A DNA stretch of 64,000 nt, from NCBI RefSeq assembly GCF_007748035.1, contig NZ_CP036278.1, forward strand, positions 6,386,001 to 6,450,000, written 5' to 3'. Made by a program: the position numbers and the translations under genes. The DNA is from Aeoliella mucimassa. GTDB taxonomy: Bacteria > Planctomycetota > Planctomycetia > Pirellulales > Lacipirellulaceae. Positions 8,500 to 50,871 of this stretch are shown here, piece by piece. The notes beneath the pieces are model-generated. The model was not told where the DNA came from, searched no databases, and worked only from the letters and a program-made list of their open reading frames with translations. Each line of letters starts with the position of its first letter. Within the stretch, counting starts at the first letter, position 1.

Positions 8500-8907
8500 G
8501 GTTCTGCAAAACCTCTCGTCGTCGCAACTACTTGTTAATACTCGACTTACAACCATCGCTCTCAATCCCCCTAAAATCATTTCGCCCCACCCCCGTTCCA
8601 CTGGGGGCAAAAGCCCAAAGTTAACCGACAATCAATCACCTCCTGCGTTCGACACATATATACATTCGAACACTATCCCTTTATAGCAGAACAGGTGGCC
8701 ATTTCCCAATGAAAAACGGGTGGATTGCGCAAGCCAGAAGTCGGTTTCGCAACGAAACCGAAGGGGTCGGCTAGAAAAGTGAATCAAACGCAGCGACGAC
8801 TAGCGATTGGCGGAAAGCAGCACGAGTGGCTTCCCCGGTAGTAAGCGATGCTTGCCCCAGAAAATATGAAAATTGAAAAAACTGGCCTGTAAACTTATTA
8901 ACCACTA
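8500..8907. other. Gene-free stretch between NHL gene and retron-like cassette
   Basis: I see no convincing gene here. It contains a short copy of a dispersed repeat (8688-8716, see its own entry) and a perfect 9-bp hairpin TCGGTTTCG (8741-8749) / CGAAACCGA (8753-8761) with a CAA loop and no T-run. The DNA is visibly more AT-rich than the flanking core genes. Confidence 0.6.
8688..8716 (+). repeat. Short copy of ACAGGTGGCC dispersed repeat
   Basis: The text AGAACAGGTGGCCATTTCCC and following AATGAAAAA resembles the 45-base repeat at 30661-30705 and 43441-43485 (AGAACAC-CACAGGTGGCCAATTCC...GTGAAAA). It lacks the left half that forms the hairpin in those copies. It marks the left edge of the retron-like accessory segment. 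Confidence 0.5.
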
Positions 8908-11065: not shown

Positions 11066-11101
11066 GTGGGTTTCGGAGGTGGCAGCGTTTGCTGCTGATT
11101 A

Positions 11102-11266
11102 GCCTATCTCATTAAAGCTAATCTCATTAAAGCTAATCTCATTAAAGCTAATCTCATTAAAGCTAATCTCATTAAAGCTAATCTCATTAAAGCTAATCTT
11201 AGTAAAGCTAATCTTAGTAAAGCTAATCTTAGTAACGCCAATCTCAATAGCGCCAATCTTAGTAAC
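11102..11266. repeat. Eleven 15-bp tandem repeats at the 3' end of the ClpP-like gene
   Basis: Eleven consecutive 15-base units are seen. Most are GCTAATCTCATTAAA (first five after the initial variant), then GCTAATCTTAGTAAA and GCCAATCTTAGTAAC variants. The array grades from near-identical units on the left to diverged units on the right. The last unit overlaps the stop codon (11259-11261) of the minus-strand ClpP-like gene. On the plus strand, one frame reads ANLIK repeated, then ANLSK, ANLSN and ANLNS. That is the A(N/D)LxX pattern of pentapeptide-repeat proteins, but this frame has no start codon after the TGA just left of the array. There are no spacers, so it is not a CRISPR. Confidence 0.9.
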
Positions 11267-12764
11267 GATAGTATCCGGTTGGGTTGTACAGCAACCAGGC
11301 GTCGAATGGGCCGCCCTTCGGCAGGCGGACGTAGGTGTGACCTTGGTCGTCGACCTTTTCTTCCAGCTTGGCTTCGTAGCGTTCCAGGTAACCAGTCGCA
11401 GCGGGCTGGTCGGCTTCGAGGCTCAGAATCCGTAGGCCGGTGTTTCGCGAACCAGTGGGCCGCTCGCGAATGGCTTCTTCGCGAACCAGCTTCACCAGGT
11501 GCTTCACCCACCCGCGCTCTACGGCTTCGTCGCCGAACAAGTCCCAGTCGCCCGACGAGCGATTTTCGTACATCTCTTCGACGAAGCCTTCCTGGGTGGT
11601 GCCGACCTTCTCGGCGACCGCGCCGATCAGGCGACGCGAAATCTCGTCGAACATCTTGCGTTGATCTTCGAGCAGGCGGCCGTTACCGCTCATCGAAGTG
11701 CTCGCCTGGTGATGCAGGATGATCGCATCGGGGTAGCAGTACGATTCGTCGGCCAGGGTGGTGATGATGGCAGCCATGCTGGCGGCAAAACGCTTGACCA
11801 CCACATGCACGGGAGCCTTGCTCTCTTTGATCGCTTGCACGATCTGCATGCCTTCCATGGCCGAACCGCCAGGGCAGTTGTCGATCACGAGGAAGATCGG
11901 CTTGTCCGACTGGTTGTTGAAGTAGTCGAGACGCGAGCAAACGTAATCGGCCGCGCCCGACATGATGGGGCCATTCAGCTCGATGCGGCGGACGCTAATC
12001 GACAGCACCCCGTCTTCCAGCGGATTCATGGGGTACTTCTCTTCGCCGATCACACGATCTTCCAGTCGTTCCTTGGCGGCTTCGACTTCGAGCTTGGTTT
12101 CGACTTGCTTTTTCTCGGCCAGAAGTTCGGCGAGATCCGACTGCACCTTTTGCATGTCGAGTTCATGCCGCATCTTCAGCACTTCGGCCTCGAGCTTCAG
12201 GCGATCGCGCTCGCGTTCGAGCGAGGCATTCTGGGCATCGACGCGCTTGGCTTCGAGATCGAGATCGATCTTCGACTTCTCGATCGCCAGGCGTTGGGCT
12301 TCGAGTTCGTGCTTGTAGAGGGCAATCTTGTGCTTGAATTGGGCCTCAAACAACTCGGCTTCGGCCTTCATCTTCTTGGCTTCCTCGGATTGAGGATCCT
12401 TGGCCGGGGCTTCTTCCTTGGCTTCTTCTTCTTTCTCTTCGCCTTCGGCAGCTTCTTCGCCTTCAGCGGCTTCCGCCTCTTCTTCGTCGGCCGATTCTTC
12501 TTCCGCTTCTTCGGCGGCTTCTTTCATTTCGGCCAGTTTTGCCTCGGCCACTTCCTTCAGCTTCTCGCGAATTTTCTCGCGGACGTCGTCCGGCAGGTGG
12601 GCGGTTTGTTCGTCAATTTGACGTTCGATTTCATCCGGCAGTTCGGCAACTGTCTGAGTCGCGGTGGCTTCGGCAGCCGTGGCTTCGATCGGGTTGGTAT
12701 CGCCGAAGCTGGGAGCCGAAAGAATCAGGACTGCCAGGAACGGGGCTAGACACTTCAGCAGCAT
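11259..12764 (-). CDS. ClpP/crotonase-fold serine protease-like protein with coiled-coil domain
   Basis: 501 residues from the ATG at 12764, chosen because it opens a signal peptide (MLLKCLAPFLAVLILSAPSF). The N-terminal half is a long, highly charged region: an acidic Glu/Ala stretch, then a coiled coil (about 130-225) of the EAKRVDAQNASLERERDRLK type. The C-terminal domain (about 250-440) has the ClpP/SDH fold with DNCPGGSAMEGMQIVQAI, where Ser in GGSAMEG is the probable nucleophile. HHQAS supplies the probable catalytic His, and GDEAVERGWVKHL is typical of ClpP-like ends. Export plus coiled coil suggests an envelope protease rather than cytoplasmic ClpP. It ends in a tandem repeat array followed by a terminator. 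Confidence 0.8.
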   Translation of the reverse strand: MLLKCLAPFLAVLILSAPSFGDTNPIEATAAEATATQTVAELPDEIERQIDEQTAHLPDDVREKIREKLKEVAEAKLAEMKEAAEEAEEESADEEEAEAAEGEEAAEGEEKEEEAKEEAPAKDPQSEEAKKMKAEAELFEAQFKHKIALYKHELEAQRLAIEKSKIDLDLEAKRVDAQNASLERERDRLKLEAEVLKMRHELDMQKVQSDLAELLAEKKQVETKLEVEAAKERLEDRVIGEEKYPMNPLEDGVLSISVRRIELNGPIMSGAADYVCSRLDYFNNQSDKPIFLVIDNCPGGSAMEGMQIVQAIKESKAPVHVVVKRFAASMAAIITTLADESYCYPDAIILHHQASTSMSGNGRLLEDQRKMFDEISRRLIGAVAEKVGTTQEGFVEEMYENRSSGDWDLFGDEAVERGWVKHLVKLVREEAIRERPTGSRNTGLRILSLEADQPAATGYLERYEAKLEEKVDDQGHTYVRLPKGGPFDAWLLYNPTGYYRY

Positions 12765-27902: not shown

Positions 27903-28847
27903 ATGATGAAATGGAACCTGTTCGGAGCGCTCCTCGCGAGTGCCCTACTTGCGAGCCCCAGCTTTGCCGGTGGCTTGTGTGGTTGTGAGCCTAGCTGTTG
28001 TGCTGCTGACGACTGCTGCTCCAGCGACCCTTGCTGCGGCGACACCTGCTGCTCGAAGCCTTGCTTGCTCGACAAGCTCTTCGGCAAGCTGAAGGGTCAC
28101 GGTTGCTGTGATCCTTGTGGCGAACCAAGCTGCTGTGCTACCGACGATTGCTGTGGTACCGACCCCAGCTGCTGTGCTGCTGATCCTTGCTGTGGCGATC
28201 CTTGCTGCTCGAAGCCCGGTCTGCTGAACAAAGTGTTCGGTAAGATCAAGGGTCACGGTTGCTGCGATCCTTGCGGTTGCGAACCCAGCTGCTGTGCTAC
28301 CGACGATTGCTGTGGTGCTGATCCCAGCTGCTGTGCTGCTGATCCTTGCTGCAGCGATCCTTGCTGCTCGAAGCCTTGCTTGCTCGACAAGCTCTTCACC
28401 AAGATCAAGCACCGTGGTTGCTGCGATCCTTGCGGTTGCGAACCCAGCTGCTGTGCCACCGACGACTGCTGTGGTAGCGAACCTAGCTGCTGTGCTACCG
28501 ACGATTGCTGTGGTGCTGATCCTTGCTGCGGATCGACCTGCTGCTCGAAGCCTTGCTTGCTCGACAAACTGTTCGGCAAGCTCAAGAAGTCGAACTGCTG
28601 CGATTCGTGCTGCGAGCCCAGCTGCTGTGCTACTGACGATTGCTGCGAGCCGAGCTGCTGTGCCAGCGACTGCTGCGGTGGAGCCGTTACTCCCGCTCCT
28701 GCCGCCCCAGCCGAAATGGAAGCTGCTCCTCAACCAGTGGAAGCCACGGACGCCCGTTTCCGTCCAGTGCCTCCTCGCCCGATGGCCGACCCCAACGCTG
28801 CTATTGGCCGTCAGCGCGACGTCGTACGCACCAGCTTCACTCGCTAA
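27903..28847 (+). CDS. Secreted Cys-rich tandem-repeat protein
   Basis: 314 residues with a signal peptide (MMKWNLFGALLASALLASPS, continuing to FAGG). The mature chain is about four and a half repeats of roughly 50 residues. Each starts EPSCCATDDCCG, continues through DPSCCAADPCCGDPCCSK, and ends with a short amphipathic cationic helix PCLLDKLFGKLKGHG and CCDPCG. Cysteines occur mainly as CC pairs. The last repeat is truncated and followed by a Pro/Ala-rich tail with basic residues. I do not recognise the family. Metal binding, a disulphide-crosslinked envelope polymer or a membrane-active repeat peptide are all possible. A terminator follows at 28907. DNA-level repeats suggest recent internal duplication. 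Confidence 0.85.
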   Translation: MMKWNLFGALLASALLASPSFAGGLCGCEPSCCAADDCCSSDPCCGDTCCSKPCLLDKLFGKLKGHGCCDPCGEPSCCATDDCCGTDPSCCAADPCCGDPCCSKPGLLNKVFGKIKGHGCCDPCGCEPSCCATDDCCGADPSCCAADPCCSDPCCSKPCLLDKLFTKIKHRGCCDPCGCEPSCCATDDCCGSEPSCCATDDCCGADPCCGSTCCSKPCLLDKLFGKLKKSNCCDSCCEPSCCATDDCCEPSCCASDCCGGAVTPAPAAPAEMEAAPQPVEATDARFRPVPPRPMADPNAAIGRQRDVVRTSFTR

Positions 28848-29130: not shown

Positions 29131-30168
29131 ATGCCTGCTCCCAACCCGTTGCTCTGGTCGGTTTGCTGCGTGCTGGCATTGCTGTCGAGCACCGCCGCGG
29201 CGGTCGAACCCACTGTCCAGCTGCCAGCGCCTCCATCCACCCAACCACCAGCGACGCTGCAGCTAACCCCGCCTGCCAACGCGAGCGACGTCCAGCCGAA
29301 CGAGGCGGCAACACCAACTCCCAAGCCGGCTCCCTCCTCAGCCAGCGACCACATCTCGGCCAGCGATCGTATGCTCGCCAATTCGCTCGCGGCCATCGTT
29401 CGCGAAGCGATTCCTCGCGAGTACGAGAAGAAGAAGGACTGGGGCAGCACCAAGCACATCACCACTGGCATCACGACCGACGAACCTCTCTACAAACTAA
29501 AACTGCACCGCAAGAAGACCGAAGTCTCGCACGGCACCTGGAAACAGTATCGCGTCAAGTTCATCGATCCCGACGAGCAACTTAGCGTCTCGGTCGAGAA
29601 CCTGCATAGCCTCGAGTCGGCCGGGCTTGGCTTGCGACTCCTGGTCGAAGCGAAGCTCGAAGGTTGGGCGCAGATGCGGCGCTACGAGCGCGGCATTCAC
29701 ATCATCACCCTCACTGCCGAAGGCGACTCGCGACTCAAGCTGGCGATCGACTGCGAAGTTCGCATGCGGGCGACCCCGCAAGGCATGGCCATCGACCCCA
29801 AGGTCACCAACGCCCAGCTCGAGCTGCAACGCTTCAACCTCACGCGCTTCGGCGAACTCCACGGCAAACTCGCCGAGGAGTTCGGCGACGGGCTCGAGTA
29901 CCTGCTGAAGGACCAGCTCGAAAACAAAAAGCTGACCGCAAAGCTGAACCGGGCGATCGACAAGAAACGCGACCGCCTGGTGCTGCTGCCATTCACCACC
30001 GCGAAACCCCAGGCCGATGATGCCAAAACGGGGGACAACACCGCGGGGGACAACACCGCGGGAGACAACACCGCGGGAGACAACATCGCGGGAGACAACA
30101 CTGCAGGGAACCACACCGCGGCCCCCTCGACCAGCAAAACCGCCGCGCAGCCATCCGCCCGCAAATAG
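29131..30168 (+). CDS. Secreted hypothetical protein with C-terminal DNTAG repeats
   Basis: 345 residues from the ATG at 29131, which gives a signal peptide (LLWSVCCVLALLSSTAAA). An upstream in-frame start at 28924 lies in the preceding terminator and is rejected. A Pro/Thr/Ala linker is followed by a domain at about 80-290 with RKKTEVSHGTWKQYRVKFID and a strand-rich core. I recognise no family. The C-terminus has six units of five residues (DNTAG and variants) encoded by 15-bp repeats at 30031-30120. The stop codon TAG lies inside the first AATAGATTCCC motif of the large intergenic repeat, so the repeat may have supplied this 3' end. Confidence 0.7.
   Translation: MPAPNPLLWSVCCVLALLSSTAAAVEPTVQLPAPPSTQPPATLQLTPPANASDVQPNEAATPTPKPAPSSASDHISASDRMLANSLAAIVREAIPREYEKKKDWGSTKHITTGITTDEPLYKLKLHRKKTEVSHGTWKQYRVKFIDPDEQLSVSVENLHSLESAGLGLRLLVEAKLEGWAQMRRYERGIHIITLTAEGDSRLKLAIDCEVRMRATPQGMAIDPKVTNAQLELQRFNLTRFGELHGKLAEEFGDGLEYLLKDQLENKKLTAKLNRAIDKKRDRLVLLPFTTAKPQADDAKTGDNTAGDNTAGDNTAGDNIAGDNTAGNHTAAPSTSKTAAQPSARK
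30031..30120 (+). repeat. In-frame 15-bp minisatellite (six units)
   Basis: Six consecutive 15-base units of the GGGGACAACACCGCG type start at 30031, 30046, 30061, 30076, 30091 and 30106, with the last diverged. They encode GDNTA repeats at the C-terminus of the secreted protein. Unit number is likely to vary between strains. Confidence 0.9.
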
Positions 30169-30412
30169 ATTCCCAACGCTGGCGAATAGATTCCCAATTT
30201 TCCCACCGATGGGAAAATTGAATCGGCACGCACTCTACAAAACCAGTGGTTTTCGACCTCGAATAGATTCCCATTTCCCAAAACGCATCGAGTGGGAATC
30301 TATTTTCTCGCTGGGAACTTATCGCAAGTCGTTTGTCAGTAGAGAGTTGCATCAACACCTCCGCGATAGGTACCCAAAATAGATTCCCATGGGTGGGAAA
30401 GTATTTTTGGTT
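30164..30412. repeat. Dispersed palindromic repeat, copy 1 (AATAGATTCCCA element)
   Basis: About 250 bases with close similarity to 42863-43160. The motif AATAGATTCCCA recurs (from 30164, 30185, 30262 and 30377). Palindromes include AATTTTCCC (30196-30204) / GGGAAAATT (30211-30219), AAAACCA-G-TGGTTTT near 30238-30252, AATAGATTCCCA (30262-30273) / TGGGAATCTATT (30293-30304), and TTCCCA / TGGGAA near 30384-30398. A conserved stretch CGCAAGTCGTTTGTCAG and GTTGCATCAACACCTCCG lies between them. There is no ORF with protein character. Confidence 0.85.
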
Positions 30413-30660
30413 GGGAGTTGGAAGTTGGGAGTTGGAAGAGTCCGTAGCGTGGGTCCAGGAGCTTCCAGCGACGCAGCCCCACGGCCGCTTTCACAACCGC
30501 GCAGCAGCGAACGCCCACGCAAGCGGCATCGCGGTCAGAGACCGCTCCTACAGCGCGCTTGCGTGGTGAATGGCCTTACTAGTTTTCATGTTCACTCGGT
30601 TACATCTTTCCATCCTCCTCCAACAACGGACCACGGACAACAAACAACGGACCACAAGAT
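30413..30660. repeat. Right half of the large dispersed repeat, copy 1
   Basis: A sequence including GAGCTTCCAGCGAC (about 30450-30475) and GCGCAGCAGCGAACGCCCAC (from about 30501) recurs downstream of the second copy, at about 43221-43235 and 43301-43325. Similarity is patchy rather than continuous. It suggests that the two loci share a unit of roughly 540-620 bases that has since diverged. Confidence 0.6.
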
Positions 30661-30705
30661 ACCTGTCCATTAGAACACCACAGGTGGCCAATTCCTAGTG
30701 AAAAC
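30661..30705. repeat. 45-base hairpin repeat, copy at end of large repeat 1
   Basis: ACCTGTCCATTAGAACACCA continues to CAGGTGGCCAATTCCTAGTG and AAAAC. The ends ACCTGT (30661-30666) and ACAGGT (30680-30685) can pair. An almost identical sequence occurs at 43441-43485 and a shortened one at 8688-8716. Confidence 0.8.
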
Positions 30706-30743
30706 TTTGGAAACTCTGAGATGCGCAAATCACTCGAAATCAC

Positions 30744-42862: not shown

Positions 42863-43160
42863 GAAATAGATTCCCACCGTTCCCGAATAGATTCCCACTG
42901 CGGAGCCGTAGATTCCCAACCCTGGGCAATAGATTCCCAATTTACCCATCGATGGGAAAATTGAATCTTCGCCCACACTACAAAACCAGTGGTTTTCACA
43001 ACGAAATAGATTCCCATTTCCCAAAACGCATCGAGTGGGTATCTATTTCCGCGATGGGAATCAATCGCAAGTCGTTTGTCAGCACTGAGTTGCATCAACA
43101 CCTCCGGAATAGTTGCCCAAAATAGATTCCCATAGGTGGGAAACTATTCTTGGGAAGGGA
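42863..43160. repeat. Dispersed palindromic repeat, copy 2 (AATAGATTCCCA element)
   Basis: Close match to 30164-30412 with an expanded left end. The motif ATAGATTCCCA or its variant occurs near 42866, 42886, 42908, 42929, 43005 and 43121. CCCATCGATGGG palindrome near 42945-42956, AAAACCA-G-TGGTTTT near 42982-42996, and AATAGATTCCCA / TGGGTATCTATT (one mismatch) near 43005-43047. The conserved tail CGCAAGTCGTTTGTCAG and GTTGCATCAACACCTCCG is present. Extra AATAGATTCCCA units on the left distinguish it from copy 1. Confidence 0.85.
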
Positions 43161-43440
43161 CGGATTGGGGATCTGGGATTGCGGATTGCGGAATGGGAAT
43201 AAGCGGATGTCATCTTGAGGGAGCTTCCAGCGACCGAAAGATCTCAGCCAGCCATTTCGAACGCGCTATCAACGAGCGCCCCACGGCCGCTTTGCCACAC
43301 GCGCAGCAGCGAACGCCCACGCAGGCAAACCATCGCCTGCGCGTCGCTAGAAATTCAAGTTCAAAACAAGCATCACATCTGATTCACCTCCAATCACTAA
43401 AAAGCCAACAGCCGAAAGCTGATAGCCGACAGCCTCAAGC
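43161..43440. repeat. Right half of the large dispersed repeat, copy 2
   Basis: It contains GAGCTTCCAGCGAC (about 43221) and GCGCAGCAGCGAACGCCCAC (about 43301), which are also present at about 30450-30525, with unrelated sequence inserted between them. No coding potential is evident. Confidence 0.55.
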
Positions 43441-43485
43441 ACCTGTCCATTAGAACACTACAGGTGGCCAATTCCCAGAGAAATC
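43441..43485. repeat. 45-base hairpin repeat, copy at end of large repeat 2
   Basis: ACCTGTCCATTAGAACACTA continues to CAGGTGGCCAATTCCCAGAG and AAATC. It differs from 30661-30705 at only a few positions. The ACCTGT and ACAGGT ends can pair. Confidence 0.8.
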
Positions 43486-43507
43486 TTGAGCTTCTAGAAA
43501 AATCGTT

Positions 43508-45085: not shown

Positions 45086-45253
45086 GAAAAGGCCCGATAT
45101 GATAGTACTCTACCTGCAGACCGCATTGTAATTCTGCTTGCAGATAATTGCAAAACACACAGCTAACAGAGTAGACCCCGAAACAGCTGATATCCACATG
45201 TATAGATTAGTAGGCCTTGTCGAACCAATCCCCCGCGACCGCTCGCCGGGTGC
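45086..45253. other. Region between LRR gene and first IS copy
   Basis: No gene was seen. It should hold the promoter of the leftward LRR gene. AT-rich text runs up to the IS boundary. Confidence 0.4.
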
Positions 45254-46778
45254 CACTGGCTTCGCCCATTACTGTCCGGAATTAATCTTAACCGATTCTG
45301 AACTTGCGCGGTGGGGAGTGGTGTGGTACGACATAGTCCATGCCTTCCCAGCGAGTTGCTAAAGACGAGCTACCAGTGTGGCCCGAGCAGGTCATTGGGG
45401 GGAAGTATGTCCGGCTTTTGGAGAAGTTTCTCAAACAACTCCGCTCGGAAGACGCCCACGGTAATCGCAAGTTATTTCTCGATGACGTGTTCGTAGCCTA
45501 CCTGCTGGCGTTCTTCAATCCCACCATCCGCAGTTTGCGAACCATCGAAGATTTCAGCCAAACGGTACAGGCTCAGAAACACCTTTCGATTCGCAAGATC
45601 ACTAGAAGTACGCTCTCAGACTTCAATCAACTGGCCGACCCCGAGCGATTGCAGCCGATTCTCGATGCCCTCCGCCGGCAACTTGCCCGCAAGTCAAAAC
45701 GGCAATCGATAGGTGACGACGATCTCGACGAACTGCTCCAGCAGACCGTGGCCGTCGATGGCACGTTTCTCCCGGCCGTGGCCGAAGTCGCCTGGGCCAT
45801 GTGCAATACGAACAATCATGGGGCGAAGAAGCATCGAGCGCGGGTGGATGTCCATTTGCCGGTGAGCACGTGGCTTCCCGAGGCAATCGTCATTCCATCC
45901 CCTGGCCAGAGCGAGGCCGATTCAGCCATCGAACGGTTGCAGCCCGGTCGTATCTATCTGTACGACCGCGGCTTCATGAGTTTCGCGCTCTTGGCAGCGC
46001 ACTACGACGACACACACGCGTTGCAATCGCACTTCGTGGCTCGTTATCGCCCAGCGGGGGGCAATTCGCCCACGCTGCGGGAAGTGAAAAGTCGCGAACT
46101 CACCGAAAAAGACAAAGCGGCCGGCGTGCTCAGCGATGGAGTGGGACATTTCAAGTCTTCGAATCCGAGCCGACATCGAGTTCCCCGAGTGCAGCTTCGC
46201 GAAGTCATCGTCGCTTGCGAAGAAAAGGGAAAACCGTCGCAACTGCGGTTGATCACCAACCTGCTCGATGTACCGGCGCACGTGATTGCCATGCTGTATC
46301 GCTATCGTTGGCAAGTAGAACTGTTCTTTCGGTGGCTGAAGAGCTCTGCGAACTTCGGACACTTGATCAGCCACGCAAGCGAAGGGGTGCAAACGCACTT
46401 CTACGTGGCGGTCATTGCCGTGTTGCTGATGTACCTGCACACCGGTTATCGACCGAGCAAGTACCTGTTCGCCCTAATGGGACAGGTCGGCCGCGGGGCG
46501 GCAACCCTGGAAGAGATCCTGCCGATCCTCCGCGAGCGAGAACGTCAGAACGAACTGGCCCGGCAGTCGGCCGCGCGGCGGAGCGAGAAAAAGAAACAGC
46601 AATCGACTTAGAGACGCTGCCACTCGGCCGCGATTCTCACGCTGCCGCCTGCGCAATGTGAAAGGAAAAAGGCGGCGAGTCTTGATCGCGTAAGCCAATC
46701 CATGCAATCATAAGACGCCGCGCAACACTCCCGGAATGCAAAGAACCGAACTCCGGACAGTAATGGGCAGAGCCAGTG
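45254..46778 (+). mobile_element. IS4-type element A, copy 1
   Basis: 45246-46768 is identical to 49339-50861 (1,523 bases). Terminal inverted repeats are CACTGGCTTCGCCCATTACT followed by GTCCGGA at the left (45254-45280), and the complementary TCCGGACAGTAATGGGC, then AGA, then GCCAGTG at the right (46752-46778). The left and right ends differ in the three-base patch. Element B starts within the last bases of this copy (46776). A single transposase gene is present. Confidence 0.88.
45340..46611 (+). CDS. IS4-family DDE transposase (element A, copy 1)
   Basis: 423 residues, full length and identical to the product at 49433-50704. The catalytic acidic residues are visible in TVAVDGTFLPAVAEV (first Asp), IYLYDRGFMSFALLA (second Asp), and YRYRWQVELFFRWLKSSANF with the Glu, the IS4-type YREK-like signature. 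The C-terminus is basic (RRSEKKKQQS). The gene lies 86 bases inside the left end, and about 165 non-coding bases follow to the right end. It moves the element by cut-and-paste, and there are no frameshifts. Confidence 0.92.
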   Translation: MPSQRVAKDELPVWPEQVIGGKYVRLLEKFLKQLRSEDAHGNRKLFLDDVFVAYLLAFFNPTIRSLRTIEDFSQTVQAQKHLSIRKITRSTLSDFNQLADPERLQPILDALRRQLARKSKRQSIGDDDLDELLQQTVAVDGTFLPAVAEVAWAMCNTNNHGAKKHRARVDVHLPVSTWLPEAIVIPSPGQSEADSAIERLQPGRIYLYDRGFMSFALLAAHYDDTHALQSHFVARYRPAGGNSPTLREVKSRELTEKDKAAGVLSDGVGHFKSSNPSRHRVPRVQLREVIVACEEKGKPSQLRLITNLLDVPAHVIAMLYRYRWQVELFFRWLKSSANFGHLISHASEGVQTHFYVAVIAVLLMYLHTGYRPSKYLFALMGQVGRGAATLEEILPILRERERQNELARQSAARRSEKKKQQST

Positions 46779-49238: not shown

Positions 49239-49346
49239 AAGGATGAACGCGAGCCCGATCAGGTCGGCTGGCTTCGCTCGGCAAAGGATCACCTCCCGAC
49301 CGCGTTATGCTGGTCGTTATTTGGCTCAGATGAGAACTCCGGGTGC

Positions 49347-50871
49347 CACTGGCTTCGCCCATTACTGTCCGGAATTAATCTTAACCGATTCTGAACTTGC
49401 GCGGTGGGGAGTGGTGTGGTACGACATAGTCCATGCCTTCCCAGCGAGTTGCTAAAGACGAGCTACCAGTGTGGCCCGAGCAGGTCATTGGGGGGAAGTA
49501 TGTCCGGCTTTTGGAGAAGTTTCTCAAACAACTCCGCTCGGAAGACGCCCACGGTAATCGCAAGTTATTTCTCGATGACGTGTTCGTAGCCTACCTGCTG
49601 GCGTTCTTCAATCCCACCATCCGCAGTTTGCGAACCATCGAAGATTTCAGCCAAACGGTACAGGCTCAGAAACACCTTTCGATTCGCAAGATCACTAGAA
49701 GTACGCTCTCAGACTTCAATCAACTGGCCGACCCCGAGCGATTGCAGCCGATTCTCGATGCCCTCCGCCGGCAACTTGCCCGCAAGTCAAAACGGCAATC
49801 GATAGGTGACGACGATCTCGACGAACTGCTCCAGCAGACCGTGGCCGTCGATGGCACGTTTCTCCCGGCCGTGGCCGAAGTCGCCTGGGCCATGTGCAAT
49901 ACGAACAATCATGGGGCGAAGAAGCATCGAGCGCGGGTGGATGTCCATTTGCCGGTGAGCACGTGGCTTCCCGAGGCAATCGTCATTCCATCCCCTGGCC
50001 AGAGCGAGGCCGATTCAGCCATCGAACGGTTGCAGCCCGGTCGTATCTATCTGTACGACCGCGGCTTCATGAGTTTCGCGCTCTTGGCAGCGCACTACGA
50101 CGACACACACGCGTTGCAATCGCACTTCGTGGCTCGTTATCGCCCAGCGGGGGGCAATTCGCCCACGCTGCGGGAAGTGAAAAGTCGCGAACTCACCGAA
50201 AAAGACAAAGCGGCCGGCGTGCTCAGCGATGGAGTGGGACATTTCAAGTCTTCGAATCCGAGCCGACATCGAGTTCCCCGAGTGCAGCTTCGCGAAGTCA
50301 TCGTCGCTTGCGAAGAAAAGGGAAAACCGTCGCAACTGCGGTTGATCACCAACCTGCTCGATGTACCGGCGCACGTGATTGCCATGCTGTATCGCTATCG
50401 TTGGCAAGTAGAACTGTTCTTTCGGTGGCTGAAGAGCTCTGCGAACTTCGGACACTTGATCAGCCACGCAAGCGAAGGGGTGCAAACGCACTTCTACGTG
50501 GCGGTCATTGCCGTGTTGCTGATGTACCTGCACACCGGTTATCGACCGAGCAAGTACCTGTTCGCCCTAATGGGACAGGTCGGCCGCGGGGCGGCAACCC
50601 TGGAAGAGATCCTGCCGATCCTCCGCGAGCGAGAACGTCAGAACGAACTGGCCCGGCAGTCGGCCGCGCGGCGGAGCGAGAAAAAGAAACAGCAATCGAC
50701 TTAGAGACGCTGCCACTCGGCCGCGATTCTCACGCTGCCGCCTGCGCAATGTGAAAGGAAAAAGGCGGCGAGTCTTGATCGCGTAAGCCAATCCATGCAA
50801 TCATAAGACGCCGCGCAACACTCCCGGAATGCAAAGAACCGAACTCCGGACAGTAATGGGCTTCGCCAGTG
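49347..50871 (+). mobile_element. IS4-type element A, copy 2
   Basis: Base-for-base copy of element A at 45254-46768, in the same orientation and 4,093 bases downstream. The right end reads TAATGGGC, then TTC, then GCCAGTG, where copy 1 has AGA. About 16 bases beyond it, GGCACCCGG (50887-50895) is the exact complement of the left outer text CCGGGTGCC, suggesting the original end was longer and is split by a short insertion. No obvious direct target duplication is seen. Confidence 0.88.
49433..50704 (+). CDS. IS4-family DDE transposase (element A, copy 2)
   Basis: 423 residues, identical to the transposase at 45340-46611, including the three acidic-residue regions and the basic tail. Complete identity of both copies, including non-coding ends, indicates very recent duplication. 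With copy 1 it brackets element B and the DUF2695-like gene in direct orientation, a layout able to move or to delete the interior by recombination. Confidence 0.92.
   Translation: MPSQRVAKDELPVWPEQVIGGKYVRLLEKFLKQLRSEDAHGNRKLFLDDVFVAYLLAFFNPTIRSLRTIEDFSQTVQAQKHLSIRKITRSTLSDFNQLADPERLQPILDALRRQLARKSKRQSIGDDDLDELLQQTVAVDGTFLPAVAEVAWAMCNTNNHGAKKHRARVDVHLPVSTWLPEAIVIPSPGQSEADSAIERLQPGRIYLYDRGFMSFALLAAHYDDTHALQSHFVARYRPAGGNSPTLREVKSRELTEKDKAAGVLSDGVGHFKSSNPSRHRVPRVQLREVIVACEEKGKPSQLRLITNLLDVPAHVIAMLYRYRWQVELFFRWLKSSANFGHLISHASEGVQTHFYVAVIAVLLMYLHTGYRPSKYLFALMGQVGRGAATLEEILPILRERERQNELARQSAARRSEKKKQQST

Follow-up and report, generated by a model that had tools for sequence, protein, structure and literature searches.

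It is an old question why bacteria maintain palindromic repeats by the hundred and whether such repeats are selfish or structural. In the REP, BIME and REPIN papers cited here (PMC2817692, PMC3116915, PMC3733652), palindromic units lie in both orientations, as mosaics, in intergenic DNA and in more than 100 copies, with a lineage-specific word and with insertion sequences (ISs) hitting them; the family described here is alike in all these respects. It is unlike them in its length of ~0.5 to 0.7 kb, in having a fixed core followed by a separate box at the far end, and in that its copies avoid each other over kilobases; for REP neighbors in P. fluorescens SBW25, no deviation from random was seen above 200 bp (PMC3116915). 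REPs also serve as IS targets (PMC1525189). The atypical structures of class 3 TnpA genes in Planctomycetes and others (PMC6006769) share with our family the high-copy hairpins and a phylum reported to carry them; the CnGA foot given there differs from the stem-adjacent bases here, we identified no class 3 gene, and these structures are a lead, not a match. Two handles on the old question, neither of which we saw in the REP papers cited here, are an exclusion distance observed in three genomes and a difference in stem word between congeners whose loop and far-end box can still be recognized; they make "selfish copying with immunity" versus "chromosome spacing site" testable.

Transposons with target immunity (Tn7, Mu, Tn3) carry arrays of ~21- to 22-bp units at one end and exclude one another over kilobases. 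Our element resembles them in its end array of such units and in its kilobase-scale mutual avoidance, but no target duplication, matching terminal inverted repeats or internal transposase gene was found in it. DNA uptake sequences are short lineage-specific words, often in inverted pairs. The word here is, in contrast, almost confined to one kind of element: AATAGATTCCCA (≤1 mismatch) recurs elsewhere within ~2 kb of the element at only 2 of 97 loci, one of these being a decayed hairpin D, and this speaks against an uptake sequence. A search of open-licence papers turned up nothing that we recognized as this element.

The window, a stretch of 64,000 nucleotides from the chromosome of Aeoliella mucimassa (G000 below), contains two copies, which are laid out as follows.

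30164..30707, plus strand: copy 1, whole element (5' unit, core, tail and D9), from left and right edge analysis
30164..30196, plus strand: copy 1, a pair of direct AATAGATTCCCA units, of which the second opens hairpin B, from the motif count
30189..30224, plus strand: copy 1, hairpin B (helix 1, 94.7% of cells paired)
30239..30253, plus strand: copy 1, hairpin C, AAAACC AGT GGTTTT (helix 2, 97.0% paired)
30262..30304, plus strand: copy 1, hairpin D, AATAGATTCCCA ... TGGGAATCTATT (helix 3, 99.7% paired, no pair with two-sided change)
30323..30362, plus strand: copy 1, conserved loop E with CGCAAGTCG and GTTGCATCAACACCTCC, recognizable at several loci of other genomes
30376..30407, plus strand: copy 1, hairpin F, its 4-nt loop occurring in both orientations among copies
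30412..30660, plus strand: copy 1, variable tail with 7-nt repeats and other dispersed modules
30661..30707, plus strand: copy 1, D9 box, the right end of the element, from the conservation edge and the D9 profile
42865..43487, plus strand: copy 2, whole element with three extra 5' units
42928..43153, plus strand: copy 2, hairpins B to F, from the alignment
43441..43487, plus strand: copy 2, D9 box

Inspection of the window confirmed what a preliminary description had proposed, namely two copies built of AATAGATTCCCA/TGGGAATCTATT units and hairpins, with CGCAAGTCGTTTGTCAG and GTTGCATCAACACCTCC as conserved segments. As corrections to it, CCCATCGATGGG proved to be the form that the loop takes in copy 2, CCCACCGATGGG being that of copy 1 and of most of the 96 aligned copies, and the extent of 30164 to 30412 given for copy 1 is too short, the element reaching the conserved box at 30661 to 30707 (42865 to 43487 for the whole of copy 2). 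ATAGATTCCCA (≤1 mismatch) is found 14 times in the window, against a mean of 0.48 and a maximum of 3 in shuffles. That these might be the only two copies genome-wide, a case also raised there, is false: exact AATAGATTCCCA occurs 586 times in G000 (331 forward, 255 reverse) and its reversed control 0 times, the loop word GTTGCATCAACACCTCC (≤3 mismatches) has 145 sites against 16 for its control, and the D9 profile has at least 150 matches. The family thus numbers about 150 dispersed members in this 6.6-Mb chromosome. Of the 586 AATAGATTCCCA and 145 loop-word sites, 100 places each were listed; the 100 loop-word places were sampled, two being the window copies and the other 98 being retrieved, and 99 copies including both window copies were retained (L095 was dropped, an IS interrupting its hairpin F). 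Spacing counts use 98 copies, hairpin B not being detected in L141, and column statistics use the 96 of equal length.

From the left, the order is 0 to 4 extra AATAGATTCCCA units, hairpins B, C and D, loop E within a weaker stem, hairpin F, the tail and D9, so that a palindromic core and a variable tail are followed by a conserved 47-bp box, with both edges of the element sharp. The number of 5' units varies, as the preliminary description had supposed: 0, 1, 2, 3 and 4 extra units were counted in 37, 42, 13, 4 and 2 of 98 copies, under a permissive rule (≤3 of 11 mismatches), with a spacing of 20 to 22 bp in 86 of 88 cases, and by eye some copies show additional, more degenerate units. The distance from hairpin B to the anchor is 160 nt in 96 of the 98. 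On the left, no more than 3 of 99 loci have anything in common past ~330 nt from the anchor, and on the right conservation ends with the end of D9 (86 loci). With a search range of 900 nt, D9 was located in 86 of 99 copies, and 10 of the 13 copies without a match carry an IS in the tail. The window tails at 30412 to 30660 and 43154 to 43440 consist of 7-nt repeats (GGGAGTT, GGATTTC, GCCGATA and others) and shared modules that are alike in many copies, and to the right of the element many loci hold other dispersed repeats. Also in the window, at 8672 to 8718, a D9-like remnant (68% identical to a D9 copy) lies downstream of a gene without a recognizable core.

The element works like REP/BIME but is not filed there, because it lacks the GT[AG]G foot, we recognized no RAYT gene flanked by the copies and the spacing differs. 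In the alignment, read by eye, no GTAG or GTGG foot lies within 0 to 2 nt 5' of a 20- to 40-nt hairpin, which is the REP/BIME trait; the bases 5' of hairpin D are mostly TCG or CCG and those of F are GCCC, and CTAC beside hairpin C is on the wrong side for a REP foot on either strand.

Copies carry ~22 substitutions per 226 nt relative to the consensus (mean pairwise identity, 85.7%), and these are distributed very unevenly, the stems and motif blocks being nearly invariant across the 96 copies and other columns varying up to saturation. Hairpins B, C, D and F belong to the nearly invariant part, with not a single pair of D changed on both sides; the stem around loop E is looser (72.4% paired, some two-sided change in 5 of 13 pairs). 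Each of the two window copies has a better fold than its shuffled versions (z = -4.37 and -5.61). Covariation within G000, in contrast, is not clearly above that of shuffles, the score being reached by 28 of 500. Since the stems are invariant without covariation, it looks as though within G000 the sequence itself is what is read. Rfam gave no match at gathering score for the window and one weak match around copy 1 (E = 1.2). The loop of hairpin F reads CCCA in 38 of 96 copies and TGGG, its reverse complement, in another 38, a sign of small inversions at this hairpin. Association between variable columns drops to baseline within ~20 nt, a rapid decay that we read as a sign of short-tract exchange between copies.

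A minus-strand coding sequence (GGAGGTG-TTG-ATG) was considered and is not supported: 77 of 96 copies keep its frame open, yet a synonymous share of 0.235 versus 0.202 and values of 0.102, 0.087 and 0.097 at the three codon positions give no coding signature. Stops number 25 in this antisense frame against 72 simulated, 12 of the 25 being a single change; they are also rarer than simulated in two other frames and commoner in one. Selection on structure, which the preliminary description had suggested in place of a decayed gene, or on sequence is supported by the column constraint, by the missing coding pattern and by conserved blocks at an orthologous slot (see below).

The word itself changes between genomes. 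The core matched 1 of 196 genomes of the order by BLAST, G000 itself, and among the other 96 relatives AATAGATTCCCA occurs 0 to 4 times per genome, with 0 in three congeners. A D9 search in G018, which belongs to another genus of the same family, gave 21 matches (control, 0), and upstream of D9 the same architecture appears with GTTTTGTCC ... GGACAAAAC; two stem subtypes account for 45 and 21 of 68 elements there, the last two being one mixed element and one with neither. A 46-position D9 profile, trained on 20 G000, 20 G018, 2 G005 and 4 G001 sequences, replaced a stricter D9-half pattern over the 97 relatives and found at least 64 matches each in G000 and G018, 46 in G005, another related genome, 34 in G003, the sole carrier independent of the training, and 7 in the congener G001. 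No profile match was found in G002, of the same genus as G000; the 1 to 3 matches in each of 16 other genomes we take as noise. In the 400 kb of G001 that was read, three elements carry GTTTTGGGCC, two of them with D9, and further G001 loci mix GTTTTGGGCC, GGTCC and GTTTTGTCCC forms; one of the two G003 loci read uses GTTTTGCCCC and the other GTTTTGTCCC. The four other carriers thus use GTTTTGNCC-like words, not always uniformly, and keep D9 and a recognizable loop, and G000 is the outlier among carriers in having one word throughout. Next to TTTTGTCC, 79 of 88 hairpins of G018 (46 when shuffled) and 21 of 23 of G005 (11 when shuffled) have a complementary base pair, which differs on both arms between subtypes in both genomes, these counts representing inherited subtypes and not independent events; the second pair shows a weaker excess of complementarity, and the third and fourth show none. 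In one G003 copy loop E forms a long hairpin. No match was found in phages or plasmids by BLAST or in viral contigs with a hairpin pattern, nor in plasmids for the G018 element; single hairpin-pattern matches in a Peptoniphilus and a Dyadobacter contig were taken as chance.

Comparison of 30 G005 with 68 G018 elements, both sets being incomplete and their flanks short, gave two pairs that share slot and orientation (L366/L337 and L343/L338), where 0.3 to 0.7 shared slots would be expected by chance (a hand estimate). Two further pairs (L350/L199 and L364/L317) touch the same gene on different sides, L356 has weak 56-residue matches only, and 25 G005 elements are without any match; among 12 G005 loci with 4-kb flanks, a more distant gene is common to the members of two additional pairs. 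The gene flanks of L366/L337 are orthologous, and within this slot hairpin D (32/35), the F arm (14/14) and D9 (32/37) keep 86 to 100% identity, about as much as the adjacent coding stretch (92/103), amid spacers at about 40 to 52% (41/79, 47/118 and 34/76). Such block conservation amid saturated spacers is more than would be expected of a neutral insertion. In L343/L338 the slot is the same and the stem subtype different, which indicates either a core replaced in place or two insertions.

The copies are also spaced. Among the 113 cores listed for G000, 3 gaps fall below 11.5 kb against 20.0 expected; for the 150 used of at least 150 D9 boxes the figures are 8 and 34.3, and for the union of 159 sites 11 and 38.0 (below 5 kb, 4 and 17.8), none of these counts being matched in 3,000 simulations, with thresholds picked after the gaps had been inspected. 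The sets leave out a decayed hairpin D at 767935, which lies 1.8 kb from an element and would add one short gap. The spacing of the union is more even than random (coefficient of variation [CV], 0.69 versus 0.99), as is that of the 46 elements with exact motif matches in the first 2.13 Mb (CV, 0.69 versus 0.97; P = 0.004), where 11 further D9 boxes have no listed core; an intergenic-slot null, applied to this subset alone, gave P = 0.006. In G018, 67 sites leave 1 gap below 11 kb (7.2 expected; P = 0.003) and 3 below 15 kb (9.6 expected; P = 0.005). In G005, 43 of the 46 matches, with the sizes of 2 of 11 contigs assumed, leave none below 12 kb (3.7 expected; P = 0.013), the smallest being 21.9 kb. 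Eight of the 113 core gaps in G000, including that of the window pair (12,743 bp), measure 12.0 to 13.5 kb. Pairs closer than 11.5 kb are few whichever way the two copies point (8 in the same orientation, 3 in opposite ones). Target immunity, a function in spacing or selection against repeats that lie near each other could each account for the avoidance. D9 shows an excess on one strand of G000 (94 plus, 56 minus) with no obvious replichore pattern. By a simple open reading frame (ORF) heuristic, the left gene is on the plus strand in 41 and on the minus strand in 51 of 92 called cases, and the 49 gene pairs with both members called comprise 20 divergent, 13 convergent and 16 tandem.

We tentatively favor, as a possibility falling somewhat short of probable, a composite BIME-like element that acts as DNA and not as a gene or structural RNA, has a putative protein reader, is copied between sites and shows immunity-like spacing. 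A putative DNA-binding or DNA-cleaving protein would recognize the motif in the direct units and in the hairpins around the conserved loop, and the D9 box would serve as the far end. Copies may have been multiplied and overwritten by intergenic site-to-site copying, through single-strand transposition or homing-type gene conversion, which would keep the motif uniform in G000, let a new word replace an old one and leave no target duplication, and bound copies would exclude new ones from the surrounding ten kb or so, as target immunity does. One word throughout G000, other words in congeners and mirror-image arms point to a trans-acting reader; copying between sites is indicated by short-tract exchange and by a slot in which the cores differ. 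Counting against this reading are the failure of the search to find a protein or an autonomous element, the mixed words of G001 and G003 elements (GTTTTGGGCC, GTTTTGCCCC and GTTTTGTCCC), the slot kept with motif and D9 conserved since two species split, the scarce stops in one antisense frame and the plus-strand excess of D9. A bolder version, which we regard as unlikely, is a self-spacing, word-switching element: a putative protein would read ~150 palindromic sites dividing the chromosome into segments mostly of at least 12 kb, a change of word would lead to rewriting of the whole set of 586 motif copies by homing-type copying via the conserved loop and D9 flanks, and site and reader would co-evolve genome-wide.

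The main rival, to our minds rather doubtful, is a host site that organizes or insulates the chromosome, where a nucleoid protein binds the motif and selection keeps spaced intergenic sites. The even spacing in G000, the scarcity or absence of short gaps in G018 and G005, an orthologous slot where motif blocks and D9 are conserved and the lack of orientation preference relative to genes are what such a site would show, but the slots and orientations common to only two of the G005 elements, in sets that are incomplete, fit it poorly, and selection by itself could hardly have exchanged each binding word of G000. That the hairpins are the stems of a large structured RNA family is improbable; the folding of the window copies, the long loop E hairpin in G003 and the two-sided change beside the stem core between subtypes speak for it, set against main stems that are nearly invariant without covariation and the lack of an Rfam match at gathering score, so that this reading, offered in the preliminary description, found no support within G000. 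The mobile or protein-binding readings offered beside it fit better, given one motif here, another in congeners and mutual avoidance, except that an ordinary miniature inverted-repeat transposable element (MITE) is unsupported. Such a MITE, or a decayed IS amplified by a DDE transposase, would account for dispersed copies at their level of pairwise identity and is nonetheless highly improbable: the ends are not mutual inverted repeats, the left being a unit array and the right the D9 box; invariant blocks adjoin saturated ones; and target duplications, suggested earlier as a thing to look for, left no excess of shared 4- to 9-mers at the edges of 85 loci, which argues against DDE transposition.

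For the favored reading, copying of a DNA element between sites, we recognized no autonomous parent or gene of its own, the genes inside elements being IS110-type, IS5-like and IS200-like insertions (the first two named from reading translations). The 13 Y1_Tnp matches in G000 comprise six identical IS200-like copies, three fragments and four others, and one of the genes that are not IS200-like (1323018 to 1323353) lies 313 nt from a D9 box at 1322665 to 1322704. Two of the nine IS200-like matches are inside elements at TCTATT of the motif (L095:2055-2635 and L247:1379-1960), four more are within 0.9 kb of a D9 box and one is outside any element (L239:1379-1960); this IS prefers the elements described here. 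An IS110-type IS sits at an identical tail module (GTAG/GGGTGGGTCCAGGAGC) in four loci (L099, L120, L136 and L147), and an IS5-like IS sits at varied tail places in five (L071, L085, L111, L129 and L155). Elsewhere in the window, identical 300-nt stretches at 45246 to 45545 and 49339 to 49638, 4,093 bp apart, lie at the start of transposase-like ORFs and are perhaps two IS copies; an ORF at 27903 to 28847 encodes a cysteine-rich protein with internal repeats of ~53 residues; and a 15-nt tandem repeat within an ORF at 11071 to 11290 resembles pentapeptide repeats.
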